Program-made: the position numbers and the translations under genes
Source: Hyphomicrobiales bacterium
GTDB taxonomy: Bacteria > Pseudomonadota > Alphaproteobacteria > Rhizobiales > MH13
DNA: 64,000 bases
Direction of reading: 5' to 3'
Assembly: GCA_017642935.1 (NCBI GenBank)
Contig: JAEPOK010000001.1
Span: 1,719,192-1,783,191, forward strand
Shown here: positions 25,338 to 43,522 of the stretch, in pieces
How positions within the stretch are numbered: position 1 is the first letter of the stretch
Layout of the letters: every line of letters begins with the position of its first letter
Notes under the pieces: model-generated
Told to the model about the DNA's origin: nothing
Databases searched by the model: none
The model's input: only the letters and a program-made list of their open reading frames with translations

Positions 25338-26075
25338 CTAGTGCCGCAAGATTTTTCCAAAGAAATCGCGAGCACGCTCAGCCTTCGGTGCATCGAACAG
25401 GATCGCTGGCGGCCCTTCTTCGACCACCTCACCCTCGTCCATGAAGATCACCTTATCAGCGACCTCACGAATGAAGGCCATCTCGTGGCTAACCAGGATC
25501 ATCGTGATGCCTTCGGCGGCGAGACGGCGAATGGTGTCGAGCACTTCGTTGACCAGCTCGGGATCGAGTGCCGAGGTTACTTCGTCGAGCAGGAGAATTT
25601 GGGGCTTCAACGCCAACGCACGTGCAATCGCAACGCGCTGTTGTTGACCGCCCGATAGTTGATCGGGAAAGGCCGCGAGCTTGTCAGCGAGACCCACCAT
25701 GGCGAGCAGTTTTTCTGCTTCCAGCCGCACCTCGGCAATCGGTCGCTTTTTGATCTTGGCCGGTGCGACCGTCACGTTTTGCAGGACGCTCATGTTCTGA
25801 AACAGATTGTACTGCTGGAAGACTATAGCCATCTGATCGCGTGCTTCGCGCACGGAGGCCGCACTTTTGTAGTTGATGGTCTTGTCGTGGATCGTGACGC
25901 TGCCGGACGTGACCGGTGTCAGCCCAACAAGCGTGCGCAGCACCGTCGATTTGCCTGACCCAGATGGACCGACAAGGCCGATCACCTCCCCCTTTTCCAT
26001 GGAGAAGGAAACGCCCTTGAGAACCTCAATCGCGCCGTAGCGGGCGCGCAGATCGTTGACCGCGACGTGTGGCAA
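25338..26075 (-). CDS. Polar amino-acid ABC transporter ATP-binding protein (GlnQ-like)
   Basis: The 245-residue ATPase has Walker A GPSGSGKST, signature LSGGQQQRVAIARAL and Walker B ILLLDEVTSALD, as in GlnQ/HisP of polar amino-acid importers. The start is a TTG at 26075, preceded at seven bases by GGAG; no closer ATG keeps the first beta strand (HVAVNDLRARYG). It overlaps the permease gene by 50 bases. It is the last gene of a four-gene importer and converges on the SDR gene. Confidence 0.9.
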   Translation of the reverse strand: MPHVAVNDLRARYGAIEVLKGVSFSMEKGEVIGLVGPSGSGKSTVLRTLVGLTPVTSGSVTIHDKTINYKSAASVREARDQMAIVFQQYNLFQNMSVLQNVTVAPAKIKKRPIAEVRLEAEKLLAMVGLADKLAAFPDQLSGGQQQRVAIARALALKPQILLLDEVTSALDPELVNEVLDTIRRLAAEGITMILVSHEMAFIREVADKVIFMDEGEVVEEGPPAILFDAPKAERARDFFGKILRH

Positions 26076-26739
26076 GGCGTTTCTCCAGATACTGGCCCAG
26101 CATGCTGAGCGGGAAGGACATAAGGAAATAGCAAAAGGCGATGGTTCCAAACACCAACAGGGCCGAGAAGCCCTGATTGTTCAGCTCCTTGCCGCGAAAA
26201 GTGAGCTCAAAAACCCCGATCTGGCTGACGAGCGCAGTGTCTTTGATGAACGAGACGGCAAAGGCGATTGCTGGTGGGATGATGACCGGCCATGCCTGCG
26301 GAAGCACGACGGTTAAGAGCGTGCGCAGCCTCCCAAAATTCATTGCCGTTGCCGCTTCGACCTGTGTTTGCGCCACCGATTCAATGCCGCCGCGAATGAT
26401 GTCGGCAGTGTAGGCTACCGCGTAGATGCAGATTGCGATGACAGCGATGGTGAACAAGGAGGCATCGGTCGTGATCGTCTGGATGAAGAAGAGCACCAGA
26501 TAGATCACCACGATAAAGGGAATGCGGCGGAAAATCTCCACATAGGCGATGCAAATCGCGCGCAAGGGCAGCGCCCACAGTCCCGGGGTCTGGCGCAGAT
26601 AGACCAGGACAAAAGCCAGCCCAAATCCGATCAGACACCCCATGGCCGTCATGGCCAGCGTCAAACCGGCCGATTGGGCGAGAAGCACCATATTGTCGAG
26701 CGTAAAAAAGCGCGGGATCTGTTCGATGATCCGTTCCAT
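26026..26739 (-). CDS. Polar amino-acid ABC transporter permease
   Basis: A 237-residue HisM-type permease with about five membrane segments and the EAA-loop region EAATAMNFGRLRTLLTVVLPQA. The start is the ATG at 26739, 17 bases after the upstream permease stop. Its 3' end overlaps the ATPase gene by 50 bases, implying coupled translation. With its partner it makes the membrane channel for the amino acid or opine-like compound captured by the binding protein at 27542-28351. Confidence 0.88.
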   Translation of the reverse strand: MERIIEQIPRFFTLDNMVLLAQSAGLTLAMTAMGCLIGFGLAFVLVYLRQTPGLWALPLRAICIAYVEIFRRIPFIVVIYLVLFFIQTITTDASLFTIAVIAICIYAVAYTADIIRGGIESVAQTQVEAATAMNFGRLRTLLTVVLPQAWPVIIPPAIAFAVSFIKDTALVSQIGVFELTFRGKELNNQGFSALLVFGTIAFCYFLMSFPLSMLGQYLEKRLATRRGQRSARPLRRD

Positions 26740-26755
26740 CAGCGGCGATCCATCC

Positions 26756-27433
26756 TCAAAAAATCCTCGCCTTGACGCGGAATGCCCAACGACCCAGCAA
26801 TGCAAGCCCGATGGACGCGATGAACGTCAGCACGACGTACATGACGGCGACGATCGAGAAATATTCCAGCCAGCGATAGTTGACGGTCGATAGGTTGATC
26901 GCCTGACCGGTCAGCTCGTCGACGCCGATCAGCGCGCCGATGGAGGTGCCCATCACCAGGACAACGATGAAAAAGTTGGCGAGCGCTGGATACACCGACT
27001 TGGCGATGTGTGGGACGATGATGTAGCGGATTTGCTGGACCAGCGAGAAGCCGAGCGTCTGGCCCGCTTCCAATTCGGTTCGTCGTACGGACAAAAACCC
27101 GGCTCGCAGGATCATCGTCAGGTAGGCCCCGGCATTGAGGATCAAGCCGATCAGCACGCAAGCTTCGTTTGACCAGCGGATGCCCACTTCTGGCAGCCCA
27201 AAATAGAGAAAGTAGATTTGGATCAGCGCCGGCGTGTTGGTGATGAAAACGACATAGCCATCGACCAGAAGCCGCAAAGGCTTGGCGCCAAAGGTGTTAA
27301 TTGCCGCTCCGACCAACCCGATGACGGCGCCGCCACCGAAAGCCACAACGCCGAGTTGGAAGGTCAGCCAAGCGCCCGCCATGAGCGCATCAAACTGGCC
27401 CCAAACGACGCCGTATTGGAACGTGTAGTTCAT
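26756..27433 (-). CDS. Polar amino-acid ABC transporter permease
   Basis: The 225-residue permease begins at ATG 27433 and has the His/Glu/Gln/Arg/opine permease signature: a first helix in MAGAWLTFQLGVVAFGGGAV and EAA loop ELEAGQTLGFSLVQQIRYIIVPH. It pairs with the permease downstream. The 108-base gap to the binding-protein gene holds a weak hairpin. The HisM/GlnP subfamily includes octopine and nopaline importers, which fits the opine-oxidase-like genes in the same region. Confidence 0.88.
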   Translation of the reverse strand: MNYTFQYGVVWGQFDALMAGAWLTFQLGVVAFGGGAVIGLVGAAINTFGAKPLRLLVDGYVVFITNTPALIQIYFLYFGLPEVGIRWSNEACVLIGLILNAGAYLTMILRAGFLSVRRTELEAGQTLGFSLVQQIRYIIVPHIAKSVYPALANFFIVVLVMGTSIGALIGVDELTGQAINLSTVNYRWLEYFSIVAVMYVVLTFIASIGLALLGRWAFRVKARIF

Positions 27434-27485
27434 GGCGAACCGGCGACCCTATATTCTACCCGGCACTGCACCCGGCCCTGCCGCT

Positions 27486-27530
27486 GACGCTGAAATCAGC
27501 AAGACGAATGGCAAGACCGGGGGCAGCGTC
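27486..27530 (-). other. Possible intercistronic stem after the amino-acid-binding protein gene
   Basis: GACGCTG and CAGCGTC are perfect complements separated by 31 bases, and a short nested palindrome GCTGAAATCAGC overlaps one arm. It lies between the binding-protein stop and the first permease start. It is weaker than the hairpins at 20308 and 44915 but in the same relative place. Confidence 0.35.
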
Positions 27531-27541
27531 GGGAAGACGGA

Positions 27542-28351
27542 TTAGAAGTAGGGATTGGGCGTGATATCACGCAGCATCGGCGAGCCGTAGTGCGCTTCCC
27601 ACCGTTCGTTGACGAAGCCCGAGGAATGCAGACCGTAGAGCAGGATGTTCAGCACTTCGGTCAGATTATCGTTGCCCTGTGCAACGCCGATTGCGCAGTA
27701 AGCCACGAAGATCGGGTTTTCGACCACGCGCCAATCGACATCGGGATAGTTTTCAGTAAAGGCCATGAAGAAGTCGATGTTTTCGACAATGGCATCAGCG
27801 CGTCCCTGCGCTACCAAACGAACCGTGTCGGCCAAGGTGTCGACAAGCTCCAGCTCGACATTGGGCATGTTCTCTTCAATCCAACCCACAGTCCAGTTGC
27901 CGCGCATATTGGCGAGCGTCACGCCTTCCTGGTTGAATTCCTGCCAGCTGTTGCCGTCGATCTCGGACGTGGCGAGCACAGCCAGCACTTCGGTGTGCAA
28001 CGGCACCGTATAATCGATCAGCATCGCCCGTTCGGCATTGCGTGTCAGGGCGCCAAGCGACACATCGATGCGATCGGAAACCAGGAACGGCACGCGCTGC
28101 GGTGTCTCGGTTGGAACCCACTCGACTTCAACGCCAAGCCCTTCGGCCAAAGCATTGGCAACGTCGATGTCAAAGCCTTCCCAATCGCCCGCGTCATTGC
28201 GCGTGCTCATGTTCGGGAAATTTGGATTGATGCCGACGCGCAGCACGCCTTCCGACAAGATTTCATCCAGGGTGCGCGCTTCGGCGACTGCCAACGGCGC
28301 GCTCAAAATGGCAAGGCCGGATAGGGCCGCAACGAATGTGCGTTTGAGCAT
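27542..28351 (-). CDS. Polar amino-acid ABC transporter substrate-binding protein
   Basis: The 269-residue protein has a signal peptide (cleaved after about residue 25 at AEA) and a type II periplasmic fold of the family 3 kind: LRVGINPNFPNMS, DWEGFDIDVANALAEGLGV and the IDVSLGALTRNAERA strand. Such proteins bind glutamine, arginine, ectoine or opines. It is first in the leftward importer operon and faces a promoter with a pair of IclR-type boxes about 70 bases upstream. The ligand cannot be read off. Confidence 0.88.
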   Translation of the reverse strand: MLKRTFVAALSGLAILSAPLAVAEARTLDEILSEGVLRVGINPNFPNMSTRNDAGDWEGFDIDVANALAEGLGVEVEWVPTETPQRVPFLVSDRIDVSLGALTRNAERAMLIDYTVPLHTEVLAVLATSEIDGNSWQEFNQEGVTLANMRGNWTVGWIEENMPNVELELVDTLADTVRLVAQGRADAIVENIDFFMAFTENYPDVDWRVVENPIFVAYCAIGVAQGNDNLTEVLNILLYGLHSSGFVNERWEAHYGSPMLRDITPNPYF

Positions 28352-28422: not shown

Positions 28423-28456
28423 GTGCGCATTACGAACTTTCGTGCGGATTATGGCG
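28423..28456 (-). promoter_or_regulatory. Paired IclR-type operator boxes E1/E2 (amino-acid ABC promoter)
   Basis: GTGCGCATTACGAAC (28423-28437) fits the consensus well; 19 bases on, GTGCGGATTATGGCG (28442-28456) matches in its first half and AT core. The pair lies in the 296-base divergent region 28352-28647 between the importer operon and the AcoX-like gene. The middle of that region (28457-28580) shows no other clear signal. Confidence 0.65.
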
Positions 28457-28647: not shown

Positions 28648-29760
28648 ATGCAGATTGGATTGATCGTAAACCCGATTGCCGGCTTGGGCGGGCGCGTCGG
28701 ATTGAAGGGCACCGATGGCCCCGGCACGGTGGCCGAAGCGTTGAAACTGGGCGCCGAGCCACAGGCCGGGCCGCGCACTTGGCGGGCGCTTGCTCGCCTT
28801 GCTGACCGTGTTCCAGGCGCGAAGCTTCAAGTTGCTCCCGGGCCACTTGGCGCGGATTGGACAGAGGGTCTCGACCTGACACTTGATGTGCTGGACACCG
28901 AAACCAGCACGCGAACGGCGCGTGATACGCGACTTGTTGTTGAGGGCATGTCGGACCGAGACCTGATCGTTTTTGCCGGCGGGGACGGCACGGCCCGGGA
29001 TGTCGCATCCGCCGCCCGTTCGGGCCAAGCGATCCTGGGCATCCCTTGCGGTGTGAAAATGCACTCGGGCGTCTTCGCCGTTTCGCCAGAAGCTGCCGGA
29101 GCCTTGTTGGCCGACATCTTGACCGCCCCAGAGCGTATTGCCTGGAACGAGGAGGCGGAGGTCATGGACATCGACGAAGCGGCCTTGCGTCAGGGTCACA
29201 TTGCGCCGGAGCTTTATGGTCATGCCCGCGTGCCTCTGGTGCGCAGTCGCATGCAGGCGTCGAAGGGAGGGCTCCGCAAAAACTGGGGCGCGGCTCTGGC
29301 AGGCGCTGCGGCAGAACTGGCGAATCAGATGGACCCAGACACGCTCTATGTCATTGGCCCTGGAACAAGCGCCGGTGCCGTGATGAAGGCAATGGGTCAC
29401 ACGCCGACGGTCCTGGGAATTGATGCCATGCGGGGCGGCGAAGTTGTCGGGCAAGATCTGAGCGCGGCGGAGTTGGAACGTCTTGCCGGTGATCGTCCCG
29501 TGAAGATTGTGCTTGGCGTGACAGGAAAGCAGGGCTTTCTCATTGGTCGGGGCAATCAACAAATCAGCCCCAAACTGCTCGCAAAGACCGGTCGTGATGG
29601 TCTGATCGTGCTGGCGGCAGAGGACAAACTCATGGAGCTTGCCCAACCCCGCCTCTGGGTGGACAGCGGCGAACCGAACCTCGACGCCGAACTGGAAGGC
29701 TTTCTGCGCGTGCGGACAGCGCCTGGTCGAGAAACGATGATGCGGCTTTCTGCCGGTTGA
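28648..29760 (+). CDS. ATP-NAD kinase family protein, AcoX-like
   Basis: The 370-residue protein has the GGDGT motif (111-115) of the NAD kinase/diacylglycerol kinase superfamily and the overall layout of AcoX, a protein often encoded with acetoin dehydrogenase but of unclear function. The N-terminal MQIGLIVNPIAGLGG is also typical. Here it stands alone with its own IclR-type box, 110 bases upstream of gcvPA. Phosphorylation of NAD or of a small molecule in this catabolic route is possible. A 447-codon open frame on the opposite strand is a shadow. Confidence 0.83.
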   Translation: MQIGLIVNPIAGLGGRVGLKGTDGPGTVAEALKLGAEPQAGPRTWRALARLADRVPGAKLQVAPGPLGADWTEGLDLTLDVLDTETSTRTARDTRLVVEGMSDRDLIVFAGGDGTARDVASAARSGQAILGIPCGVKMHSGVFAVSPEAAGALLADILTAPERIAWNEEAEVMDIDEAALRQGHIAPELYGHARVPLVRSRMQASKGGLRKNWGAALAGAAAELANQMDPDTLYVIGPGTSAGAVMKAMGHTPTVLGIDAMRGGEVVGQDLSAAELERLAGDRPVKIVLGVTGKQGFLIGRGNQQISPKLLAKTGRDGLIVLAAEDKLMELAQPRLWVDSGEPNLDAELEGFLRVRTAPGRETMMRLSAG

Positions 29761-29790: not shown

Positions 29791-29824
29791 GTGCGTTATG
29801 TGAACTTTTGTGCACTATTTGCAC
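29791..29824 (+). promoter_or_regulatory. Paired IclR-type operator boxes A (gcvPA promoter)
   Basis: GTGCGTTATGTGAAC (29791-29805) and GTGCACTATTTGCAC (29810-29824) lie exactly 19 bases apart. The first is identical over all 15 bases to the box at 38672. The pair ends 46 bases before the gcvPA start codon. Confidence 0.78.
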
Positions 29825-29870: not shown

Positions 29871-31292
29871 ATGTCGAGCGAGCCCAGGCCCACACAGTCC
29901 CGATCCCACCCTTGGATGGCGCTTTCCGCCCCCGGTGTCATCGACGAGATGCTGGCTGAAATCGGCGCGCCCTCGGTCGAGGCTCTTTTTGAGCAAATTC
30001 CGCAAGATCATTACCGAAAAACACCGCTTGATCTGCCGCCAGCACTCACCAGCGAGATGGAGCTTAAACGCGACCTGGTTACGCGGTTGAAGCAGAACGA
30101 AAGTTGCGAAGACAATCTGAGCTTTTTGGGCGCAGGCGTCTGGCAGCATCATGTGCCAGCCATCGTCGATGAGATCGTCGGGCGCACCGAATTCGCGACG
30201 AATGTGTGGGGTAGCTATCAGTCCGACCATGGTCGCAACCAGACTTGGTTCGAGTTCTCCTCTCAGCTCGGCGCGCTACTGAACCTAGATGTGGTGCAGT
30301 TGCCCGTCTATTCCTGGGGCTGCGCGACCGGCCACGCGATCCGTATGGCGGCCAAGATCACCGGGCGCAAAAAGGTCCTCGTTCCGCAACTCAGCGATCC
30401 TGAGCGCCTGTCTGTCATCCGCACCTATTGCCAGCCGCAGGAGATGGAAAGCGCCATCGAGGTTGTCATGGTGGCGGCTGACCCGACATCGGGACGCCTT
30501 GATCTCAATGATCTGAAAGCCAAGCTCGGGGCCGATGTGGCAGCGGTCTATTTCGAGAACCCGGCCTATCTCGGCACCATCGAAACCGGAGCGGCCGAGA
30601 TCGCCAAACTAGCGCGCGCAGCAGGCGCAGAAACCATTGTTGGCGTCGATCCGATCAGCCTTGGCGTTATGACCGCACCTAGCGACTATGGCGCTGACAT
30701 TGTCACCGGCCCGGTGCAACCGCTGGGCGTCCACATGCAATGCGGCGGCGGCGCGGGCGGCTTCATCGCCTCACGCGATGAAGAAGCTTACGTGCGTAGC
30801 TACAACGGCTTCTTGGTTTCGATCGCCGAAACACTGGAACCTGGTCAACACGCATTCGGCCTCGCCTGCCCACACCAGAATTCCTATGGCATGCGAGAAG
30901 ACGGCAATGATTGGACCGGCAACTCCACCTATCTCTGGGCGATTGCTGGGGCGGTCTATATGAGCCTGCTTGGGCCGGAAGGTTTCGCCGAAGTAGGCCG
31001 CCTGATTGTTTCGCAAGCCCGCTATGCTGCCAAGCTTCTGGGTGAGGTGCCGGGTGTTCAGATCATCTGGCCGGACACGCAATTCAAAGAGTTCGTCGTC
31101 AACTTCGATGACACGGGCAAGACCGTGGCTGAGATCAACGATGCTCTTCGCGCCAAAGGGATCTTCGGCGGCAAAGACATTTCAGGCGAAGGGCTAGGTG
31201 TTGGTCAGTCCGCGCTTTACTGCGTGACCGAAATGCACACTGCCGCCGACATTCAACGCCTTGCCGATACCATGAAGGAGGTTCTGTCATGA
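29871..31292 (+). CDS. gcvPA: Glycine dehydrogenase (decarboxylating) subunit 1
   Basis: The 473-residue protein matches the N-terminal-type subunit of split glycine decarboxylase (P-protein): SFLGAGVWQHHVPAIVDEI, the PYQSDH-like block WGSYQSDHGRNQ and GGPLG-type region near VTGPVQPLGVHMQCGGGAGG. The P-protein takes CO2 from glycine with PLP and passes the aminomethyl group to lipoyl H-protein. A good ribosome site (GGAG) precedes the ATG. It overlaps gcvPB as ATGA. The first block differs from the usual Y-x-P-Y-Q, so a different amine acid substrate is possible. Confidence 0.88.
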   Translation: MSSEPRPTQSRSHPWMALSAPGVIDEMLAEIGAPSVEALFEQIPQDHYRKTPLDLPPALTSEMELKRDLVTRLKQNESCEDNLSFLGAGVWQHHVPAIVDEIVGRTEFATNVWGSYQSDHGRNQTWFEFSSQLGALLNLDVVQLPVYSWGCATGHAIRMAAKITGRKKVLVPQLSDPERLSVIRTYCQPQEMESAIEVVMVAADPTSGRLDLNDLKAKLGADVAAVYFENPAYLGTIETGAAEIAKLARAAGAETIVGVDPISLGVMTAPSDYGADIVTGPVQPLGVHMQCGGGAGGFIASRDEEAYVRSYNGFLVSIAETLEPGQHAFGLACPHQNSYGMREDGNDWTGNSTYLWAIAGAVYMSLLGPEGFAEVGRLIVSQARYAAKLLGEVPGVQIIWPDTQFKEFVVNFDDTGKTVAEINDALRAKGIFGGKDISGEGLGVGQSALYCVTEMHTAADIQRLADTMKEVLS

Positions 31293-32851
31293 GCCGCTTG
31301 CCGAATTTTCACGCCGCCAAATGGGACGAGCCGGTTGTCATGGAAATGGGACGTCCAGGCGGTCGTGGACAAGTCTTCCCAGCCCCTGAATCTGAGGTCG
31401 CCAGCAGCGTAGGCGAGAATTTAATCCCTGGCGCGATGGCGCGCAAAGACCGCCCGGAACTGCCTGAGATCACAGAGTTCGAAGCGCAGCGGCATTATCT
31501 GCATTTGAGCCAGATGACGCTTGGCATGATGGGCGTCAGCCTCTTCGGCACCTGCACTATGAAGTACAATTCCAAGACGTCGGAATATGCGACGTTGCGG
31601 CCCGAACTAGCAGACGTACACCCCTACCAGCACGAAGACACGCTTCAGGGTGTTTTGGGCATCATTCACGAGTTTGACGGCATTTTGCGGTCGCTCTCAG
31701 GCATGGATCAGTTCATCTTTCAGGCTGGAGGCGGTGCGGATGCGGCCTACACCATGACGGCCCTCGCCCGCGCCTATTGGAAAGACAAAGGCTTGCTTGG
31801 CCAACGCACGGAGATGGTGACATCGGCGCAGTCGCATCCCTGCAACCCAGCAACCGCAGCCGCTGCTGGCTTCAAGGTGGTGAACCTTCCGCTGGAAGAA
31901 AACGGTTACCCATCGCTGGATGCGTTGAAGGCCGCTGTGAGCGACAAAACCGCGCTCATTATGCTCAACAACCCTGATGACATGGGCATTTATAACCCTG
32001 AGATCAAAGAATGGGTGCATGTTGCCAAAGAGGCTGGGGCACTCTGCTTCTACGATCATGCCAACTTCAATGGCGTTATGGGCAAACTGTCCGCGCGGGA
32101 ACTCGGCTTCGACGCCTGCATGTTTATGCTCCACAAGACCTTTGGTGCGCCGAAGGCCGGTGGTGGCCCCGCCGTTGGAGCCTTTGGCTGCTCGGATGAC
32201 CTCGCGCCCTACCTACCGACGCCAGTCGTGGTCAAAGAGGGTGATCGCTATCGGCTGGATGAGGATCGCCCGAAGTCGGCCGGCAAGGTGCGCGAATATT
32301 GGGGCAATGTTCCCCAAGTTGTGAAAGCCTATGCCTGGGCGCGCGGCATGGGTGCCGAGGGCATTCAGTTGGCGTCGGACATTTCTGTTGTTGCCAACAA
32401 TTACATGGACAAGCGCCTGTCCGAAATCGACGGGCTCGCGATTTCGAACCCTGATGTCAAAGCCCATCGAATGGAGATGACGCGCTGGTCGCTGGGCCCG
32501 CTGGCTGAAGAAACCGGCATCGGCACCGTCGATTTCGCCAACCGTATGGCTGACTTTGGCATCGACCCCTGGTGGATGAGCCACGAACCCTGGATCGTCG
32601 CCGAACCCTTCACGCCCGAAGCCGGCGAGCTTTGGTCGAAAGAGGATATCGATCTTTGGATCGATGTCGTCGCCAAGATCGTCGAGGAAGCGCGGACTGA
32701 CCCTGACATGGTGAAATCAGCGCCGCACAATCAGCCCGTTGCGCAAGTGAAGGGCGACGTTTTTGAGGACCCAAGCCAATGGGCGATGACCTGGCGCGCG
32801 TACCAGCGTAAGATCATGGGTGGCGCACAAGCTGATCGCGGCGCGGCTTAG
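31289..32851 (+). CDS. gcvPB: Glycine dehydrogenase (decarboxylating) subunit 2
   Basis: The 520-residue subunit holds the PLP site: Lys283 in LHKTFGAPKAGGGPAVG, preceded by the substrate/PLP region CFYDHANFNGVMG, and GTCTMKYNSK in the N-terminal part. It is the catalytic half of split P-protein and forms a heterotetramer with gcvPA. No gcvT (aminomethyltransferase) or gcvH (lipoyl carrier) gene is in this window, so it must either use the housekeeping T, H and L proteins or act independently. It converges on a flavoprotein gene after 21 bases. Confidence 0.9.
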   Translation: MSRLPNFHAAKWDEPVVMEMGRPGGRGQVFPAPESEVASSVGENLIPGAMARKDRPELPEITEFEAQRHYLHLSQMTLGMMGVSLFGTCTMKYNSKTSEYATLRPELADVHPYQHEDTLQGVLGIIHEFDGILRSLSGMDQFIFQAGGGADAAYTMTALARAYWKDKGLLGQRTEMVTSAQSHPCNPATAAAAGFKVVNLPLEENGYPSLDALKAAVSDKTALIMLNNPDDMGIYNPEIKEWVHVAKEAGALCFYDHANFNGVMGKLSARELGFDACMFMLHKTFGAPKAGGGPAVGAFGCSDDLAPYLPTPVVVKEGDRYRLDEDRPKSAGKVREYWGNVPQVVKAYAWARGMGAEGIQLASDISVVANNYMDKRLSEIDGLAISNPDVKAHRMEMTRWSLGPLAEETGIGTVDFANRMADFGIDPWWMSHEPWIVAEPFTPEAGELWSKEDIDLWIDVVAKIVEEARTDPDMVKSAPHNQPVAQVKGDVFEDPSQWAMTWRAYQRKIMGGAQADRGAA

Positions 32852-32872: not shown

Positions 32873-34012
32873 TCAGTCGGCCAAAACGGATATGCCCTTA
32901 AGGTCAGCACTGGGTCTCTGACCAAGCACCAATTCGGCAACAACCTGCGCAGTCATGGGTGCAGCACTAAAACCGACCCAGGGAAAAAGCGCCAAAAAGA
33001 ACCCTGGCGTGCCGGGTACTTCGCCGAGAATCGGGCGCCAATCTGGCGTACCGTTGACCCAAGCTGTCCAACTGCGCACGGCGCGCATGTGACCAAGTTT
33101 CGGCACCACATCGGCGGCAATGCCCATATTGCCGGTCAAGCTCGATGGGTCGGTGGCAAGCGTGCCATCGGAACGCAAAGCGGCCGGCCATCCACCCCCG
33201 ATGATGCAACCGCCATTGGACGCCTGTTTCAACGACAGTTTTCCTGCCGCCGAGTAGACCAAATGTGGGATAATCGGCGCCACCGGTTCAGTAACCGTGA
33301 CCTGCAAGGGAAACCCGTCGATCTCAATGTCCACGCCGAGCATGGCCGCGATTTCACCGGCTCTCGCGCCCGCGGCGTTCACAACACGGCTGGCCTGCAA
33401 GGTTCCGCGCGACGTGGCGAGCTGAATACCGCTCGCCTCTTGCGCCATTCCGGTGACCATCGTGTTGCGCATGATCGATACGCCCGCGACTTCAGCCGCC
33501 TCCGCCACAGCCGGCGTTGCACGCAAAGGATTGGCTTTGCCTTCCAACGCGCAAAAACCGCCGCCAATCGCTTTGTCCGACAGATAGGGCGCAACGACAC
33601 GCAACTGATCACGATCCAGAAGCGTGGTCTCGACACCATGCTCGGCCTCGATCACGGCCTTTTGCTCAATCAGTTGCATCTGAGCTTCGGTTCGCGCGAC
33701 GACAATGCCGCCGCCCAGTTTGACGTCCAGATCCTCGCCCACACGCTCCGACAACGCCTGCCAAAGGCCAAGCGACTCTTTCAAGAAACGCAGGCACGGT
33801 CCGTACGCACGAGCCCAATCCTCTCCGTACAGAGCGAACTCGGGGTACTGAATCTGCAGGTGCAGCGACCCAGCATTGGCGCCAGATGCCTGAGCACCAA
33901 GATCACCGGCCTCCACCAGCGCCACCGAGGCACCAGCCTCTGCCAAGTTCCAGGCGGTCATCAATCCCGTGATGCCACCGCCGATCACCAGAACATCAAA
34001 ACGATCTGCCAT
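32873..34012 (-). CDS. FAD-dependent amine oxidoreductase (HcnC/opine oxidase beta/D-hydroxyproline dehydrogenase-like)
   Basis: The 379-residue flavoprotein has the FAD motif VLVIGGGITGLMTAWNLAEAG at its start and the ANAGSLHLQ segment characteristic of HcnC, opine oxidase subunit B and the beta subunit of D-hydroxyproline dehydrogenase. The same segment occurs in the paralogue at 41337-42464. These enzymes oxidise a C-N bond of an imino- or amino acid, passing electrons through a partner iron-sulfur subunit. It is divergent from the DapA-family gene with only 41 bases between the starts. Substrate unknown. Confidence 0.85.
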   Translation of the reverse strand: MADRFDVLVIGGGITGLMTAWNLAEAGASVALVEAGDLGAQASGANAGSLHLQIQYPEFALYGEDWARAYGPCLRFLKESLGLWQALSERVGEDLDVKLGGGIVVARTEAQMQLIEQKAVIEAEHGVETTLLDRDQLRVVAPYLSDKAIGGGFCALEGKANPLRATPAVAEAAEVAGVSIMRNTMVTGMAQEASGIQLATSRGTLQASRVVNAAGARAGEIAAMLGVDIEIDGFPLQVTVTEPVAPIIPHLVYSAAGKLSLKQASNGGCIIGGGWPAALRSDGTLATDPSSLTGNMGIAADVVPKLGHMRAVRSWTAWVNGTPDWRPILGEVPGTPGFFLALFPWVGFSAAPMTAQVVAELVLGQRPSADLKGISVLAD

Positions 34013-34053
34013 CAGTGCAGCATTCCTTTCCGCTTCGATCCAATGAGGACAGC

Positions 34054-35004
34054 ATGAGCAAGAGTTTTTCCGGCAGTCACACCGTCACCGTCACACCGTT
34101 CACGGAAGGTGGGCGTGCCATCGACTTCCCTGCTTGGGAGCGGTTTCTCGATTGGCAGATGGCGTGCGGCGTACCCGGCGTCATCATCCTGGGCACGACA
34201 GGCGAGTTTCTCACCATGACCGACGAGGAGCGCGAGCAGTTCGTCGAACACACGGTCAAATACATCAACGGCCGCATCACCGTTTGGGTCGGCACAATGA
34301 ACGCCTACACGCCGAACGCCGTACGCTATTCCAAACAGGCCGAAGACCTTGGCGCCGACGGGCTGATGATCATTCCGCCTTACTATTACACGCCGACTGA
34401 CGACGAGATTTTCAACTATTACCAGGCGATCTGCGACGGCTGCGATCTGCCAATCATGCTCTATAACAACCCCTTCACCTCGAACGTTGATATGAGCGCT
34501 AAGCTGGTGGGAAGGCTCACCAAGAGCTTCAATCAGATCCGCTACATCAAAGAGGCAAGCCAGCGCATCGAACGCATCCACGACATCATCCTCGAAAGCG
34601 ACGGGCTGATGAATGTCTGGGCCGGGCAACGGGTTTTGGAAAGCTACAAGATGGGGGCCAAGGGCTATGTGAATCCCTATGGCAACTACATTCCGCGTGC
34701 CTCTGTGAAGTTCGTTGAGTGGGCAGAACAAGGCCGCTGGGACGATGTGCAAGCCGTCCAAACGGTGATTTCGAAGTTCGACATGATCATCACCGAAGGG
34801 CATCCGCTCTATGGCCACCAATGCTATTCCAAGGCTCTCGCTGCCGCCGCAGGCTACCCAGTCGGCGATGTGCGTGCGCCGATCACGACGTTCGAAAGCC
34901 TCGGTGAGGAAGGCCGCGATCGTGTGGCTCGTATGGTGCCGCTGATGGAAGAGTTGGACCGGATTGTCGATGGGATCGAAGGTCGCCAGGTCGCTGCGGA
35001 ATAG
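34054..35004 (+). CDS. Dihydrodipicolinate synthase (DapA/NAL) family lyase
   Basis: The 316-residue TIM-barrel enzyme has the family motif GTTGEFLTMTDEER, tyrosine in MLYNNP and Schiff-base Lys166 in YIKEAS. The family covers synthase, aldolase, dehydratase and deaminase reactions, including the pyrroline-hydroxy-carboxylate deaminase of D-hydroxyproline breakdown. The ATG at 34054 follows GAGGAC; the frame opens earlier at a GTG with no support. Neighbouring opine-oxidase-like flavoproteins and an aldehyde dehydrogenase would fit that pathway, but no epimerase is present here. Confidence 0.87.
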   Translation: MSKSFSGSHTVTVTPFTEGGRAIDFPAWERFLDWQMACGVPGVIILGTTGEFLTMTDEEREQFVEHTVKYINGRITVWVGTMNAYTPNAVRYSKQAEDLGADGLMIIPPYYYTPTDDEIFNYYQAICDGCDLPIMLYNNPFTSNVDMSAKLVGRLTKSFNQIRYIKEASQRIERIHDIILESDGLMNVWAGQRVLESYKMGAKGYVNPYGNYIPRASVKFVEWAEQGRWDDVQAVQTVISKFDMIITEGHPLYGHQCYSKALAAAAGYPVGDVRAPITTFESLGEEGRDRVARMVPLMEELDRIVDGIEGRQVAAE

Positions 35005-35019
35005 CATCGAAGAGCAGCC

Positions 35020-35781
35020 TTAACGAATGTAGGCCGCGCCGTTCACGTCGATGGTGGCGCCCGTCAGATGGCGGGCGCGGCCAGTGGCCAAAAAGACTGC
35101 CGTCTCTGCGATGTCTTCCGGCGGCACCCACTCGCCCATGGGCAAGGTCGCCGTTACCGCCTCTTCACCACCAACTTTGGCGGCAGTCTCGACCGACATG
35201 CGTGTGCGCACGACACCTGGGGCGATGACATAGGCAAGGATGCCTTGGGCCGCATAGTTACGCGCAACCGTTTTGGTCGCGGCGGAGATCGCCGCCTTCG
35301 ACGCGGCATAAGCAATGGCGCCGGGATTTGAGGTGCCGCGCGTCGTTACCCAACTGCCGATTCCGATCACCGAGCCTTTGGTTTCTGTCTCAAGCCAGTT
35401 GCGCACAGCATGGCGCATTAGACGGGCGGGGGCATGCACATTGACGGTCATGGCTTCAGTCCAGACCGCATCCCATTCCTCAATGGGATCGGAAATACCG
35501 CCGCTCTGACGCATGATGCCGGCATTGTTGATCAGGACGTCGACACGTCCCCCAGCTAGCTCCCACGCTTCGGCCCAGAAACGATCGACTGCTTTCAAAT
35601 CCTTGAAATCGGCTTGAACCAGGTGGGCTCTGCCCTCTGCCGCTGCTTCCACGCCTGCTCGATCGCCACCATAATGGGCGATTACGGTCGCACCGGCATC
35701 AAGCATTGCTTTGGCTGTGGCAGCGCCGATGCCCTTTGAAGCACCGGTCACGATAATGGTCTTGCCTGCTAGCTCACTCAT
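35020..35781 (-). CDS. SDR family oxidoreductase
   Basis: The 253-residue dehydrogenase shows IIVTGASKGIG, INNAG, the serine in GIGSWVT and YAASK, and ends in GATIDVNGAAYIR. All catalytic residues are present. I start at the ATG at 35781 that overlaps the flavoprotein stop as ATGA; the open frame extends upstream only as a shadow of that gene. It is second in a two-gene leftward operon with the OYE-type reductase, and its promoter region holds a pair of IclR-type boxes. Confidence 0.87.
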   Translation of the reverse strand: MSELAGKTIIVTGASKGIGAATAKAMLDAGATVIAHYGGDRAGVEAAAEGRAHLVQADFKDLKAVDRFWAEAWELAGGRVDVLINNAGIMRQSGGISDPIEEWDAVWTEAMTVNVHAPARLMRHAVRNWLETETKGSVIGIGSWVTTRGTSNPGAIAYAASKAAISAATKTVARNYAAQGILAYVIAPGVVRTRMSVETAAKVGGEEAVTATLPMGEWVPPEDIAETAVFLATGRARHLTGATIDVNGAAYIR

Positions 35782-36884
35782 CGTTCGCTCCGTTTGACAA
35801 AGGGGGTTGCCGCAAGCGCCGGATTGCAGCGCGCATAGGGCGCTGGCAACGCTATTTCGGCGCCCAGCGCAACCGCAGCTTTCCATGTCCAACGCGGGTC
35901 CCAAAGCATGCCGCGCGCCAGGGCGACCAGGTCAGCCTGACCGGTGGCGATGATCGTTTCGGCCTGCACGGGATCGGTGATCTGACCAACAGCCATGACG
36001 GGCATTCCGGCCTCGCAACGGATGGTTTCGGCAAATCCGACTTGGTAGCCTGGCCCAGTGGTGATTTTCTGGCGCTGATCAAGACCGCCGGAGGTGACGT
36101 CGATCATGTCACAGCCAGCCTCTCTTAGGGCTTGGCTGAACGCAAGCGTTCCGGCCATATCCCAGCCGCCATCGATCCAATCGATCGCCGATAGCCGCAC
36201 GATCACCGGCTTTTCTTTCGGGAAGGCTTCGCGCACGGCTTTGAAGACATCAAGCGGGTAGCGCATGCGATTTTCCAGCGAACCGCCATACTGATCTTGG
36301 CGGTGGTTGGTGATCGGCGACAGAAACTGGTGCAGCAGATAGCCATGCGCTGCGTGCAACTCGATCAAATCAAAACCGGCGCGCTCAGCGCGCTTGGCAG
36401 AATCAACGAAGGCGTTACGCACGCGCTCCAGCGCTCCATCATCCATCGCGCGCGGCTCGGGCCAGCCAGGAAGATAAGGAATCGCCGAAGGAGCGTCGGT
36501 CACCCAGGCGCCCTCGCCTTCGATCAAGCCGCCCCCTTCCCAGGGCGCCACCGTGCTTCCCTTACGCCCAGCGTGGCTGAGTTGAATGCCCACACGCATA
36601 TCGCCGACCGACTTCATGAACGTGATAATACTGGCGAAGGCTTCCTCACACGCATCATCGTACAGGCCTGTACAGCCCGGCGTGATGCGGCCATCTGGCT
36701 CAACGCCTGTAGCTTCAACGAAAATGGTGCCCGGACCGGACATCGCGAACTGGCCCAAATGGGCCAAATGCCACTGTCCCGGCACACCGTTGATCGCCGC
36801 GTATTGGCACATGGGAGAGACGACAACGCGATTGGGCACTGTGAGCCCACCCAGTTGGAGGGGCGTGAAAAGCTGAGCGGCCAT
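35778..36884 (-). CDS. NADH:flavin oxidoreductase / old yellow enzyme family (YqjM-like)
   Basis: The 368-residue FMN protein has the OYE barrel with NRVVVSPMCQYAA near the N-terminus, active-site HxxH in LIELHAAHGYLLHQFLSP and the phosphate-binding C-terminal region AVGQITDPVQAETIIATGQADLVALARG. Such enzymes reduce C=C bonds of unsaturated carbonyls or demethylate amines (relatives include trimethylamine and dimethylglycine-type enzymes). The leftward operon starts here, just behind the box pair at 36931-36964. A role in reducing an enone or imine in the IclR-linked pathway is inferred. Confidence 0.88.
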   Translation of the reverse strand: MAAQLFTPLQLGGLTVPNRVVVSPMCQYAAINGVPGQWHLAHLGQFAMSGPGTIFVEATGVEPDGRITPGCTGLYDDACEEAFASIITFMKSVGDMRVGIQLSHAGRKGSTVAPWEGGGLIEGEGAWVTDAPSAIPYLPGWPEPRAMDDGALERVRNAFVDSAKRAERAGFDLIELHAAHGYLLHQFLSPITNHRQDQYGGSLENRMRYPLDVFKAVREAFPKEKPVIVRLSAIDWIDGGWDMAGTLAFSQALREAGCDMIDVTSGGLDQRQKITTGPGYQVGFAETIRCEAGMPVMAVGQITDPVQAETIIATGQADLVALARGMLWDPRWTWKAAVALGAEIALPAPYARCNPALAATPFVKRSER

Positions 36885-36930
36885 GGCTGACTTTGAACCT
36901 GTTGGAAAAGGCGATTGATCGATGCCAATC

Positions 36931-36964
36931 GTGCGTTATAGTAACTTGTGTGCGCTATTTGAAC
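36931..36964. promoter_or_regulatory. Paired IclR-type operator boxes B (divergent promoter)
   Basis: GTGCGTTATAGTAAC (36931-36945) and GTGCGCTATTTGAAC (36950-36964) are 19 bases apart and fit the consensus closely. They lie between the OYE gene (starts 36884, leftward) and the isomerase gene (starts 37002, rightward), so one pair can serve both. Confidence 0.78.
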
Positions 36965-37001
36965 ATGGCGCGGAAATGCAGACAAGCAGAAAGGTCCGTT
37001 T

Positions 37002-37841
37002 ATGTCCCCGCTCCGTGTTGCCGCCAGTACCTTTCCCTTCCTTTATTCACATGGCGGTTTGGATGCGCTCAAGCATCTGAAAACGCTCGGATATGACACT
37101 TATGAGTTGATGATCTTTCCGCCGCATTGCTGGCCGCGCGAACTGACGGTCGCCGACAAGCGCGACTACAAGGCTTGGCTTAATGGCGAGGGCGGTCATG
37201 TGAGCAGCTTCTGCTACCCGCTGCTCGACAACAATCCCAATGGCGTCGATCGTCTGATGCGTGGCTACACGCTGGATCGCTACAAAGAGGCGATCGATTT
37301 CGCGGCCGAGTTGGAGTGTCCCTATGTGGTCGCCATCCCAGGACCGGTGAACAGCCTGATCAACCCGCCCTACCAGTGGATGCTCGACTGGTTTGTTGAA
37401 GGTGTCAAAGAGCTGGTGGCCTATTCCAAGGGAACAGGCGTCGAGATCCTGTTGGAAAACGTGCCGTTCACGTTCTTGCCGACGGCCAAGGACATGGCCG
37501 ACACAGCCGCCCTGATCGGGCCGGAAGTCGGTGTGAACTTCGATGTCTGCAACAGCGCCTTCATCAAGGAAGACCCTGCCGATGCCATTCGTATGCTCGG
37601 CGGCCTTGTGAAAAACGTTCACATTTCCGATTCAGGCTATGACGATTTCAAGCACGAAAAACTAGGCACCGGTATTGTTGAACCTGGCCCTGCAGCGCAG
37701 GCGCTCAAGGACATCGGATACACCGGTGTTACTGTGTTGGAAATCATCACCGATGCTCTGGCCGAGGGTGCCGACCCCGACGGTGAAATCAAAGAAAGCC
37801 ACGATATCCTGACCGCCAACGGGTGGGCGGCCAGGGGATAG
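37002..37841 (+). CDS. Sugar phosphate isomerase/epimerase family TIM barrel (hydroxypyruvate isomerase-like)
   Basis: The 279-residue protein is an AP-endonuclease-2-type TIM barrel. It shows ILLENVPFTF with a metal-binding glutamate, NFDVCNSAF with an aspartate, NVHISDSGYDDF with histidine and aspartate, and a final glutamate in TVLEIITDA. Substrates in the family range from hydroxypyruvate and tagatose to inosose. It stands alone, converging on an SDR gene 4 bases away, under the IclR-type box pair. Its substrate is not evident. Confidence 0.83.
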   Translation: MSPLRVAASTFPFLYSHGGLDALKHLKTLGYDTYELMIFPPHCWPRELTVADKRDYKAWLNGEGGHVSSFCYPLLDNNPNGVDRLMRGYTLDRYKEAIDFAAELECPYVVAIPGPVNSLINPPYQWMLDWFVEGVKELVAYSKGTGVEILLENVPFTFLPTAKDMADTAALIGPEVGVNFDVCNSAFIKEDPADAIRMLGGLVKNVHISDSGYDDFKHEKLGTGIVEPGPAAQALKDIGYTGVTVLEIITDALAEGADPDGEIKESHDILTANGWAARG

Positions 37842-37845
37842 GCGC

Positions 37846-38604
37846 CTAAGCGAGGCCCGCTTCCACGGGTAGGATCACCCCTGTCATTCCTGCTGAGGCG
37901 TCCGACGCCAGGAAGTAGGCTGCGTTGGCCACATCCAGTTCTGTGGCAAGACAACCCAACGCCGATTCGCTTTCCAATGCTGCTAAGGCTTCGGCGGGCG
38001 ACGGCCCGCCAGCCCTATGCCGCGTCTCAACGCGTCCCATCAGCGCTTCGGTGGCAATTGGCCCCGGCGCCAGTCCATTGACCCGGATCTTGCGTGGTCC
38101 AAGATCAAGAGCAGCCGCGCGCACCACTCCGATGACGGCATGCTTGGAGGCTGTGTAGAGCACCTGTTTGGGGTGGGCCTTGTAGCCGTTGATGGAGGCC
38201 ATCGCGACAATGGACCCATGGCCGGACTGTTCCAGCGAGTCGGCAAACGCACCGATAGTCGCAGCGACGCCCCAGACATTGACCCGCATGACGCGATCCC
38301 ACTCGGCAAGATCAAGTTCGTCCAAGCCACGCCAAGGCGGGACCAGGCCAGCATTTGCGACCAGGATGTCCACTTTGCCAAGCCGCGCGGCCAGTGCCTT
38401 CAGTTGGGCATCGGCTGTGTCGTTGGCCAGATCGACGCCTTCTGCCTGCCACGCGTCAGGCAAGTCGGACAGTCTGTCGGGCAAATCAACGGCAACGATG
38501 GTGGCACCACCGGCCGCTAGCCGTTCTGCGATCGCACGCCCAAGGCCACTGACCGCACCAGTCACCACAGCCAGGCGCCCCTCAACGGAATGATTGTTTT
38601 CCAC
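37846..38604 (-). CDS. SDR family oxidoreductase
   Basis: The 252-residue protein has VVTGAVSGLGRAIAERLAAGG, VANAG and catalytic YTASK with serine in AMASINGY. I start at the GTG at 38604, preceded at eight bases by GGAGGG; the longer frame to 38667 has no family similarity and would run into the operator. It is divergent from the 3-hydroxyacyl-type dehydrogenase, sharing the box at 38672-38686. Activity is probably on a hydroxy or keto intermediate of the IclR-linked pathway. Confidence 0.86.
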   Translation of the reverse strand: MENNHSVEGRLAVVTGAVSGLGRAIAERLAAGGATIVAVDLPDRLSDLPDAWQAEGVDLANDTADAQLKALAARLGKVDILVANAGLVPPWRGLDELDLAEWDRVMRVNVWGVAATIGAFADSLEQSGHGSIVAMASINGYKAHPKQVLYTASKHAVIGVVRAAALDLGPRKIRVNGLAPGPIATEALMGRVETRHRAGGPSPAEALAALESESALGCLATELDVANAAYFLASDASAGMTGVILPVEAGLA

Positions 38605-38671
38605 GGCAAAACCCTCCAACACAGGGGCATCAAGTGATGACCCAATTCGTGATTGCCTCTCCCGCACACTT

Positions 38672-38686
38672 GTGCGTTATGTGAAC
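38672..38686. promoter_or_regulatory. IclR-type operator box C, two bases before a start codon
   Basis: GTGCGTTATGTGAAC is identical to box A1 at 29791. It ends two bases before the ATG of the 3-hydroxyacyl-type dehydrogenase and 68 bases upstream of the divergent SDR. A copy at 38653-38667 keeps the 19-base spacing but matches only in part (CGCAC end). Confidence 0.72.
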
Positions 38687-38688
38687 TC

Positions 38689-39633
38689 ATGCAAGACAAA
38701 TCGTTAGATTCTCCGAAGATCACCATCCTGGGCGCCGGGTCGATTGGCGTGTCGTTTGCCGCTTTTTTCTCCGATATCGGCGCGCATGTAAGCTTGATCG
38801 ACCCCGATGCAGAACGGCGTGTAGCAGCCTCTCAAGGGTTGGCAGACCAGAGAGAATCTATGCGTGAGGCTGGTCTCTTGCGCGGCGGTGCCGGTCCAGT
38901 GGACACCCTCGGAAACCTCGAAACGGCGCTCCCAAAAGCTGATCTTGTCATCGAGTGCGGGCCAGAAAACCTTGCAACGAAGCAAGAGATTTTCGCCGAT
39001 CTCCTAGCTAGGAGTGGGTCGGAAACAGTCTTGGCGACAGCCTCGTCGGCGATCACAATTTCAGAGATCCTGCCGAATCCATCCCAGCAAAAGCGATGTC
39101 TGGTCGCGCACCCGGTTAATCCGCCCGCAATCCTCCGCGTTATTGAGTTGGTGCCCGCGCCCGGCACTGACCAACAGGCAACAGCGAAGGCTGCCTCACT
39201 TTTCCAGTCAGCTGGGTTTGAGACCGTCCAACTCGGCCATGAGATTGAGGGGTTTGTGCTCAATCGCCTGCAAAGCGCTGTCCTGCGCGAGGCTTACCGG
39301 CTGGTCGATGAGGGCGTGACGGATGTCGCTGGAATCGAGACCATCATGAGGATGGGCCTTGGCCCACGATGGGCGCTATCGGGTCCGTTTGAAACGGCGG
39401 AGCTCAACACGCCGGGCGGCATCAAGGCGCATGCCGCGCGAATGGGGCCAGCTTACAAGCGCATTGGCGAAGCCCGCGGGGAAACGGTTGATTGGAACGA
39501 TGCTCTTATCTCCAAGGTCGATGCGCAAAGGCGCGAGGTTTTGTCGTTGGGCGAACTTGCCGGGCGGGCGACATGGCGTTCGCGCGCTGTCGCTCGTCTT
39601 GTTGCCGTGCGCGATCGGCTGATGCAGGACTAG
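38689..39633 (+). CDS. 3-hydroxyacyl-CoA dehydrogenase family NAD-dependent oxidoreductase
   Basis: The 314-residue protein has the Rossmann motif ITILGAGSIGVSFA, ECGPENLATKQEIF, and HPVNPPAILRVIEL containing the active-site histidine, then the helical C-terminal domain. This subgroup includes L-gulonate dehydrogenase/lambda-crystallin and L-carnitine dehydrogenase, which act on free hydroxy acids rather than CoA esters. There is no ribosome site before the ATG: the IclR-type box ends two bases upstream. Either translation is leaderless or it starts at the TTG at 38653, placing the box inside the gene. It leads the three-gene flavoprotein operon. Confidence 0.85.
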   Translation: MQDKSLDSPKITILGAGSIGVSFAAFFSDIGAHVSLIDPDAERRVAASQGLADQRESMREAGLLRGGAGPVDTLGNLETALPKADLVIECGPENLATKQEIFADLLARSGSETVLATASSAITISEILPNPSQQKRCLVAHPVNPPAILRVIELVPAPGTDQQATAKAASLFQSAGFETVQLGHEIEGFVLNRLQSAVLREAYRLVDEGVTDVAGIETIMRMGLGPRWALSGPFETAELNTPGGIKAHAARMGPAYKRIGEARGETVDWNDALISKVDAQRREVLSLGELAGRATWRSRAVARLVAVRDRLMQD

Positions 39634-39640
39634 CCGTGCA

Positions 39641-41350: not shown

Positions 41351-42464
41351 CACGCTCGTCATTGGCGGCGGCGTAACCGGCACCGTCGCAGCGATTGCCT
41401 TGGCCGAACAAGGCGCGCGCGTCACGATCCTCGATGCTGCAACCAATGCCGGTTCAGACAGCAATGCCGGATCGCTGCACGTGCAAATGCAAAGCCGTTT
41501 TATGCGCCTCTATCCCGATCAGGTGGCCAACGTTGAAGCCTCCCTGCCCTTTTATCGTGAAGCAGCCGACGTCTGGGCACAACTTGACCAAGATCTTGGC
41601 GGCCTCGAGTTGGTGCGCCAAGGCGGGTTGATGTTGGCCGAAAGCGCCGACCAATTGGCGTTCTTGGAAACCAAAGCGAAACGGGAGGCGTCCAAGGGTC
41701 TCAAGGTCGAGATTCTTGACCGCACCGCCCTCGACAAGGTGGCGCCCTGGCTTGGTCCGCAGATTGTCGGCGCGGAACTGTGCAAGGACGAGGGCAAGCT
41801 CAACCCGTTGATAGCCAACGCGAAATTAAAGGCGTGGTCGGCGACGCTTGGCGTTGAACGCCGCACCGTGCGCGTTGAGCGATTGGACCAGGGGCCGGGC
41901 GACATATCGGCGGTCACGTCCGACGGAATTTTTGGCGCAGACCAAGTCATCATCGCCGCGGCGTGGGGATCGGGCGATCTGGTTGCCCCCTTTGGGATCA
42001 CGATCCCGACCAAGGCTGAGCCGCTGCACATGAACATCACGGAATCCGGCGCGCCAGCAATCCACCATCTGGTGCAGCATGCAGAGCGGTCAATCACGCT
42101 CAAACAGTTCGGCTCGGGGCAAATCGTGATTGGTGGCGGTTGGCCGGCAACGGGTCGCGGCGCCAACCATCCGCCTGCGGTGGCATCATCATCATTGATG
42201 GGCAACGTGGCTTTGGCCGCCAAGCTCGTGCCCAGGATCGCCGGTCTGCGGGTCATCCGCACCTGGGCCGGCATGAACACCACGATCGATGGCGCCTCGG
42301 TGATCGGTCGTCTGCCGCAGACCGACCGCATCATCATGGCGATACCCGGCGATGCCGGCTACACGCTTGGACCGCTGGTTGGGCAGGCGGCGGCCGCTTT
42401 TGCGCTTGGCGAAAAACCCGACACCGATGTCGAGCGTTTTTCTCCGCATCGCTTTGCCGCTTAG
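41337..42464 (+). CDS. FAD-dependent amine oxidoreductase (HcnC/OoxB-like)
   Basis: The 375-residue flavoprotein begins TLVIGGGVTGTVAAIALAEQG and has the subgroup segment SNAGSLHVQMQ, followed by GGLMLAES and the C-terminal IGGGWPATG and WAGMNT blocks. It is a paralogue of the protein at 32873-34012. Start is the ATG at 41337, inside the end of the preceding gene, implying a fixed complex with the HcnAB-like fusion. The complex should oxidise a secondary amine or amino acid with electrons passing through FAD and 2Fe-2S. Its 3' end overlaps the convergent IclR gene by four bases. Confidence 0.87.
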   Translation: MTAADTLVIGGGVTGTVAAIALAEQGARVTILDAATNAGSDSNAGSLHVQMQSRFMRLYPDQVANVEASLPFYREAADVWAQLDQDLGGLELVRQGGLMLAESADQLAFLETKAKREASKGLKVEILDRTALDKVAPWLGPQIVGAELCKDEGKLNPLIANAKLKAWSATLGVERRTVRVERLDQGPGDISAVTSDGIFGADQVIIAAAWGSGDLVAPFGITIPTKAEPLHMNITESGAPAIHHLVQHAERSITLKQFGSGQIVIGGGWPATGRGANHPPAVASSSLMGNVALAAKLVPRIAGLRVIRTWAGMNTTIDGASVIGRLPQTDRIIMAIPGDAGYTLGPLVGQAAAAFALGEKPDTDVERFSPHRFAA

Positions 42465-43354: not shown

Positions 43355-43488
43355 GGCGCCTTCCTTTTCATCCTTCCTTCTCAGCCCACAAAGAAAGGCT
43401 GATTCCGCACAAGAGTCTGCCTAGCACACCGCATTTGCATCCGGCAGCCAACGAATTGCGGAAAAGCACTTGCGTAGATCGTCGGATC

Positions 43489-43522
43489 GGTGAATTATCG
43501 CACAAGCGTTCGCTATGTGAAC
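43489..43522. promoter_or_regulatory. Paired IclR-type operator boxes D (IclR gene and sugar ABC operon)
   Basis: GTTCGCTATGTGAAC (43508-43522) fits the consensus; 19 bases earlier GGTGAATTATCGCAC (43489-43503) matches the reverse form in its CGCAC half and AT core. The sequence around the main box (TATGTGAACTTTT) also matches box A. It lies between the IclR gene and the ABC binding-protein gene and may carry autoregulation. Confidence 0.7.

Follow-up and report, generated by a model that had tools for sequence, protein, structure and literature searches.

The 64-kb stretch of the Hyphomicrobiales contig JAEPOK010000001.1 analysed here (hereafter the window) encodes two proteins resembling the subunits of a split glycine decarboxylase (P-protein), GcvPA and GcvPB, and these are very likely not glycine cleavage enzymes. 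On balance, they probably form an α/β pair dependent on pyridoxal 5'-phosphate (PLP), P-protein-like but independent of the lipoyl carrier GcvH and the aminomethyltransferase GcvT, which operates with a kinase-like partner in an inducible catabolic regulon. Such a pair would quite likely be a PLP lyase acting on a substrate other than glycine in amine or amino-acid catabolism. The initial annotation had described gcvPA and gcvPB as an operon; the two open reading frames (ORFs) are indeed adjacent, overlapping by 4 bases, and the unit can be extended to three genes (the triad), since a kinase-like gene with a box of its own belongs with the pair (Table 1).

Glycine cleavage components in the genome and the genus

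The genome that carries the window (3.74 Mb in 17 contigs, 98.8% complete; window on contig C1) has a single match to the P-protein profile PF02347, which is the GcvPA-like protein (PA) itself, and a search with the GcvPB-like protein (PB) returned only its own query. The second complete gcv set that the initial annotation had suggested looking for was thus not found in the genome and, as that annotation had stated, the window holds no match to the GCV_T or GCV_H profiles. A true GcvH was not found in the rest of the genome either: the sole GCV_H match spans 38 residues of a 517-aa frame (contig C2) and is probably an E2 lipoyl domain. Likewise, no true GcvT was found, the sole GCV_T match in the genome lying below the cut-off in a 284-aa frame (contig C3) that is probably YgfZ-like (both labels are our own). 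It had been reckoned with that the pair might be the only P-protein of the genome, with gcvT and gcvH elsewhere under the same control; the pair is indeed the only one, whereas neither gcvT nor gcvH turned up elsewhere in the genome. The proposal that the pair supplements housekeeping T- and H-proteins has to be given up for this genome, where the search revealed none of the housekeeping T, H and P proteins; the modelled H-interface motif is gone as well (see below).

Two further genomes of the genus (G001, 95% complete, and G002, 97% complete) have no PF02347 match, nor does any GCV_T match in them exceed the cut-off, and their GCV_H matches are short (36 and 35 residues). An assembly gap was considered as the cause of the missing genes, given that gcvT, gcvH and gcvP can form one operon, as at locus L093; a single gap is unlikely, however, because these two genomes are also without P, T and H, the exception being a fourth genus genome, G045, to which we return below. 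The absence of glycine cleavage from the genome of the window, G001 and G002 is therefore well supported. Since the PB search gave no match in G001 or G002, the triad itself is accessory. Serine hydroxymethyltransferase is present in all four genus genomes. Some GCV_H match occurs in 28 of 31 genomes (that of the window included), with short matches only in G000, G001, G002 and G047. The last of these, a 100% complete genome from the same order and a different family, contains six GCV_T-domain matches, some of them in long frames, together with no PF02347 match and a GCV_H match only under the cut-off.

Phylogeny, motifs and kinase-like partner of the pair

A tblastn search against plasmids retrieved eight relatives of the window PB with 53–81% identity; the remaining 32 among the 40 matches listed, of 159 records, reach at most 36.9%, the highest identity seen there for conventional GcvPB. 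A genome scan with two patterns, one of which contained the GTCTMK signature of the clade, yielded 272 confirmed relatives, the best 80 of which were kept and examined (L013–L092). According to record titles, the hosts belong to the Alpha-, Beta- and Gammaproteobacteria and the Actinomycetota, with one Pedobacter and, in the plasmid set, one haloarchaeon. Many of these loci are closely related to one another, so that the counts given below represent non-independent events. The comparison with housekeeping P-proteins called for by the initial annotation sets the pair apart: in the PB tree, 89 clade sequences form a monophyletic group (support 0.994, stem 1.13) relative to 31 fused P-proteins and 8 split PB proteins, and in the PA tree 86 clade sequences separate from 37 canonical ones (support 0.984, stem 1.01). 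The pair belongs to a well-supported separate clade of P-protein-like proteins. All 39 other triad genomes examined (those left of 42 after three were set aside) encode a separate housekeeping P-protein scoring at least 382 bits alongside the clade PA, which mostly scores 145–182 bits; there, the clade is therefore no replacement for the housekeeping P-protein.

The PLP lysine pointed out in the initial annotation, Lys283 of PB, lies within the motif LHKTF, which was found in all 128 PB and P sequences compared, and H183, D256 and K283 are among the invariants common to clade and canonical sequences. Around this core, motifs typical of canonical proteins are missing throughout the clade: YTxYQxE of PA (0/86 in the clade versus 37/37 in canonical sequences), REQHIRR..A..N of PA (0/86 versus 36/37) and NLHKTFxxPHG of PB (0/89 versus 39/39). 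The clade has its own motifs, namely MLHKTFxxPK and a C-terminal RxEMTR in PB (87/89 each) and Q-x-S-Y in PA (85/86). In an excerpt of PMC7259800, human Y161 and Y164 are labelled active site, and Q366, I372, R373 and K376 are labelled H-protein interface from a docking model. Numbering checked by alignment identifies the former as the two tyrosines of YTPYQ and places the latter four within or next to REQHIRR. Ile stands at the position of I372 in none of the 86 clade sequences (36/37 canonical), Arg stands at that of R373 in one (37/37 canonical), and no Gln occupies the position of Q366 in the 85 clade residues shown, of 86 (35/37 canonical). The equivalent of H371, which lies between the interface residues without being labelled as one, is Tyr in 86/86 clade sequences. 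Across these alignments, the substrate-side and modelled H-docking motifs are thus replaced by another, equally conserved set, while the PLP core residues are kept.

As antisense frames mask some PB, PA or kinase genes in an ORF-based context table, linkage was recounted by tblastn. Of 88 clade loci, 84 have the kinase-like gene (on the same strand as the pair in 79 and on the opposite one in 5), against none of 39 canonical P loci; the four loci without a match comprise one from a haloarchaeon and three in which PA starts less than 175 bases from the end of the stretch. The haloarchaeal Natronosalvus plasmid does carry a kinase-like gene (L133, 7905–9122), which is separated from PA/PB by about 55 kb and lies near genes for DHDPS, short-chain dehydrogenase/reductase (SDR) and aminotransferase proteins. 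GcvT was matched near 0/88 clade and 25/39 canonical P genes, and GcvH near 0/88 and 26/39, using one Phyllobacterium query for each, which under-detects, and flanks whose lengths differ between loci.

The kinase-like protein, which we take to be COG3199, contains NAD_kinase and NAD_kinase_C domains with a GGDGT motif. Its AlphaFold model (mean pLDDT 87, pTM 0.56) gave weak matches to solved structures, none at E≤0.001; diacylglycerol and sphingosine kinases are among them and the top match is an unrelated serine hydroxymethyltransferase. No second, AcoX-like copy of the gene was detected in six triad genomes searched, and the neighbours of other homologues (Peptoclostridium, two haloarchaea, Pseudoalteromonas and Aeromonas) have no function in common. 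On the Peptoclostridium acidaminophilum plasmid (L132, 7992–10068), the relative lies immediately 5' of a gene with a PLP aminotransferase fold, and GcvPA/PB are not annotated within the 17-kb stretch.

Regulation and neighbourhood of the triad

Three exact copies of a box pair with the pattern GTGCG..AAC..GTGC occur in the window (Table 1). One of them precedes the gcvPA-like gene, as the initial annotation had noted; its attribution to an IclR-type protein would follow from the IclR/PcaR-type regulator encoded in the cluster. Together with two sites carrying 3 mismatches each, the window contains five sites, a number reached in 0 of 100 shuffles; the count of three alone would be circular, because the pattern was derived from those three. 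With a looser pattern, the 89 loci, among them the window, yielded 81 sites, compared with 2 in one reversed copy of these loci; the sites lie mainly 5' of the genes for the TIM-barrel protein (24), PA (23) and the family-3 binding protein (13). The amino-acid ATP-binding cassette (ABC) transporter diverges from the kinase-like gene with a box region common to both, and the closest Protein Data Bank (PDB) sequences to its binding protein are family-3 binding proteins and related cyclohexadienyl dehydratases. The conserved box pairs thus tie the triad to an amino-acid transporter within an inducible catabolic regulon, and the view that control is catabolic rather than housekeeping fits this evidence. 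The two weaker sites are far from the cluster (2159–2186, minus strand; 1133–1160, plus strand); the former, located 5' of the gene at 1191–2105, is matched by the looser pattern as well.

Table 1. Features of the triad and its surroundings in the window (OYE, old yellow enzyme; FeS, iron-sulphur; ALDH, aldehyde dehydrogenase).
Feature	Position	Strand	Evidence or remark
NAD-kinase-like protein (presumed COG3199/AcoX type), 370 aa, partner of the pair	28648..29760	+	Pfam NAD_kinase 1.1e-15, NAD_kinase_C 1.8e-11; GGDGTARD and GVKM motifs
GcvPA-like subunit, 473 aa, without YTxYQxE and REQHIRR	29871..31292	+	PF02347 157.9 bits; NF001696 410 bits
GcvPB-like subunit, 520 aa, PLP Lys283, MLHKTFxxPK and RxEMTR	31289..32851	+	NF003346 483.6 bits; alignments; fold match 9a73_B, 1wyu_B
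Box pair between amino-acid ABC transporter and kinase-like gene	28423..28450	+	Exact site
Box pair 5' of gcvPA-like gene	29791..29818	+	Exact site
Box pair between OYE-type and TIM-barrel genes, same regulon	36931..36958	+	Exact site
Amino-acid (family 3) ABC transporter: ATPase, two permeases, binding protein	25338..28351	-	ORFs; SBP_bac_3 9.1e-23; gene context
Conserved catabolic neighbours: DAO, DHDPS, SDR, OYE, TIM barrel, SDR, 3HCDH, FeS oxidoreductase, DAO, IclR regulator	32873..43354	.	Some start codons uncertain
Sugar-type ABC transporter, second DHDPS, two SDRs, class-III aminotransferase, succinate-semialdehyde-type ALDH	43210..53075	+	

The gene order of the catabolic neighbours is kept in many of the loci compared, and the gene types of the segment that follows them also come after the triad on Paracoccus pAMI4. 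At 39641–42464, an FeS/FAD protein, which resembles soxA far under the cut-off, is joined by a DAO-clustered protein, a combination presumably reminiscent of two-subunit amino-acid or opine oxidases. Two DHDPS-family genes (34015–35004 and 47818–48735) fall within one catabolic region, and neither reaches the dapA cut-off.

Elsewhere, the triad adjoins an APC permease, an SDR and an AMP-binding ligase in Rhodococcus, the same types of genes (the ligase being an AMP-binding ligase/acyl-CoA synthetase) and a primary-amine oxidase in Gemmobacter, and a zinc-dependent alcohol dehydrogenase (Zn-ADH) with an LLM oxidoreductase in Sphingomonas. Class-III aminotransferases were counted in 10 and ALDHs in 9 of 89 loci (the window among them), these being raw counts without a background rate. 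Directly upstream of the triad, on the same strand and within 300 bp, 3HCDH genes were found in 4, SDR genes in 2 and Zn-ADH genes in 2 of the 89 loci. The best PDB sequences for the Gemmobacter SDR are 6ci9 and 6ci8 (2.7e-66), which we take to be 1-amino-2-propanol dehydrogenase; among the 60 matches listed for each of two Rhodococcus SDRs, only generic ones were found. An ephedrine-type pathway, considered as a possible precedent, was dropped, the papers listed in one literature search including none on it and the Rhodococcus SDRs giving these generic matches. In RMM loci, according to an excerpt of PMC4207490, an SDR converts amino-2-propanol to aminoacetone.

Candidate reactions and related systems

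Were the pair a catabolic glycine decarboxylase after all, its acceptor would have to be free lipoate or a different lipoyl domain, for example that of an E2 protein. The P-protein fold and the PLP lysine are retained, the 517-aa frame offers a GCV_H-like lipoyl-domain match, and the NCBIfam equivalog cut-offs are passed by both GcvPA (410 versus 364 bits) and GcvPB (484 versus 441 bits). The clade-wide disappearance of the active-site and modelled H-docking motifs nevertheless makes this very improbable, as do the failure to find a GcvT for methylene uptake in the genome, the lack of gcvT or gcvH beside any of 88 loci, and the separate housekeeping P-proteins of the other triad genomes.

Besides the equivalog scores, several observations weigh against our interpretation. 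In G045 (78% complete), which gave no GCV_H match, a GcvT scoring 285 bits is encoded and a PF02347 fragment of 39.6 bits lies where a contig begins; a loss for the whole genus is therefore not established. All 42 other triad genomes searched possess a GcvH (the selection took in 43 of the 80 loci, 42 of them searchable), so an H-protein is available outside this genus. Because 13 to 14 of 39 canonical loci are likewise unmatched, the local absence of GcvT and GcvH is by itself a weak argument. The H-protein interface is that of a docking model, and the equivalent of K376 is still Lys in 19/86 clade sequences (35/37 canonical). A HMMER alignment also pairs an aromatic residue of the window PA with one tyrosine of the YTPYQ motif, and one ring may therefore be kept. 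Finally, a recognised dehydrogenase lies within 5 kb in only 54 of 89 loci and none does so in the other 35.

This last count bears on one tentative candidate reaction, the cleavage of an α-aminoketone, in which a neighbouring dehydrogenase would oxidise a 1,2-amino alcohol or a β-hydroxy amino compound and the module would release an acid and a primary amine. The three unrelated dehydrogenase families directly upstream in some loci, the Gemmobacter SDR with its adjacent acyl-CoA synthetase and primary-amine oxidase, and the aminoacetone-forming SDR of the RMM locus all speak for it; the dehydrogenases are nonetheless confined to some loci, the family-3 binding protein of window-type loci points to an amino acid, and the AcoX-like second copy, sought in six triad genomes, was not found, the link to AcoX being one of analogy. 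Another tentative candidate, slightly more probable, is the decarboxylation of an amino acid, larger than glycine or hydroxylated, that the adjacent transporter would import and the pair would release as an amine. It stays nearest to native P-protein chemistry and would account for the family-3 transporter at the same box and for the class-III aminotransferase and ALDH of the wider cluster, but it leaves unexplained the kinase-like partner as well as loci where acyl-CoA ligases are present while the stretch examined lacks a family-3 transporter. The near-constant kinase-like partner, which has a GGDGT motif and a fold faintly resembling that of diacylglycerol and sphingosine kinases, could instead phosphorylate the hydroxyl of an amino alcohol or amino acid, from which the PLP pair would eliminate phosphate. 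We regard this as improbable, since the fold match is weak (its top hit being unrelated) and a P-protein-like heterodimer would be unnecessary for such chemistry. The other option raised by the initial annotation, a different amino acid as substrate, fits the evidence and is the favoured alternative there, with the substrate being a predicted, non-glycine one.

For a P-protein-like pair independent of GcvH and GcvT, the following course can be envisaged. Given the PLP lysine and the fold, an amine substrate other than glycine would be accepted by the PLP on Lys283 as a Schiff base, and the loss of motifs suggests that neither glycine nor the lipoyl arm is a partner any more; the PLP step may still resemble that of P-protein. 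The neighbouring genes point to amines, aldehydes and acids, and we infer from these features taken together that the bond between the amine carbon and a carboxylate or acyl carbon would be cut, with CO2 or an acyl moiety as leaving group; of the routes considered, we favour decarboxylation or α-aminoketone cleavage yielding a primary amine. The resulting PLP carbanion would be protonated instead of being handed to lipoate, releasing a primary amine that could then be used by the class-III aminotransferases, primary-amine oxidase and aldehyde dehydrogenases near some copies.

The closest known system is the two-subunit GcvPA/GcvPB (1wyt/1wyu, Thermus), with which the pair shares the fold, the split gene pair, the PLP lysine and core residues. 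In contrast to that system, the window pair has no GcvT or GcvH beside it or in its genome, lacks YTxYQxE, REQHIRR and NLHKTFxxPHG, and has gained the C-terminal RxEMTR and the kinase-like partner. PB also shares a fold type I PLP domain with class V aminotransferases and cysteine desulfurases (Pfam Aminotran_5, 4.3e-10; SufS structures), and its GcvP2_C match is slightly below the cut-off. Those enzymes are homodimers, however, and the best sequence and fold matches of PB remain P-proteins; its structure model (mean pLDDT 69, moderate confidence) was used for fold comparison only. According to excerpts of PMC9676059 and PMC10943186, AcoX of acetoin operons is associated with a C–C-cleaving enzyme and is predicted to be an NAD kinase or a kinase for small molecules. 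By description, the kinase-like protein would be alike in being an NAD-kinase-type protein with such a tie, although the partner of AcoX is the acetoin dehydrogenase complex. By extension of this analogy, the triad could tentatively be pictured as a mobile catabolic module spanning several phyla. In it, a heterodimer of P-protein type, freed from lipoate chemistry, would act with an AcoX-like protein to cleave a C–C bond beside an amine (in an α-aminoketone or an unusual amino acid), and the module would be to PLP what the AcoX-dependent acetoin dehydrogenase is to its own cofactors.

Among titles and abstract beginnings of the open-licence PubMed Central literature, none was found on this clade or its function, and glycine decarboxylase is the name given in all 7 annotated records among the 8 plasmid records with relatives. 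The best reading is that the pair varies a known fold and that automatic models give it the wrong name; as several of the defining features tested are missing from it, it does not belong under the heading of glycine cleavage P-proteins. Because it passes the equivalog cut-offs and is labelled glycine decarboxylase, genome-based predictions of glycine and one-carbon metabolism that count gcvPA/gcvPB could be wrong. If the interpretation is true, the clade would represent a P-protein-like enzyme working without lipoate and would provide a second setting in which to ask about the role of AcoX-like proteins.

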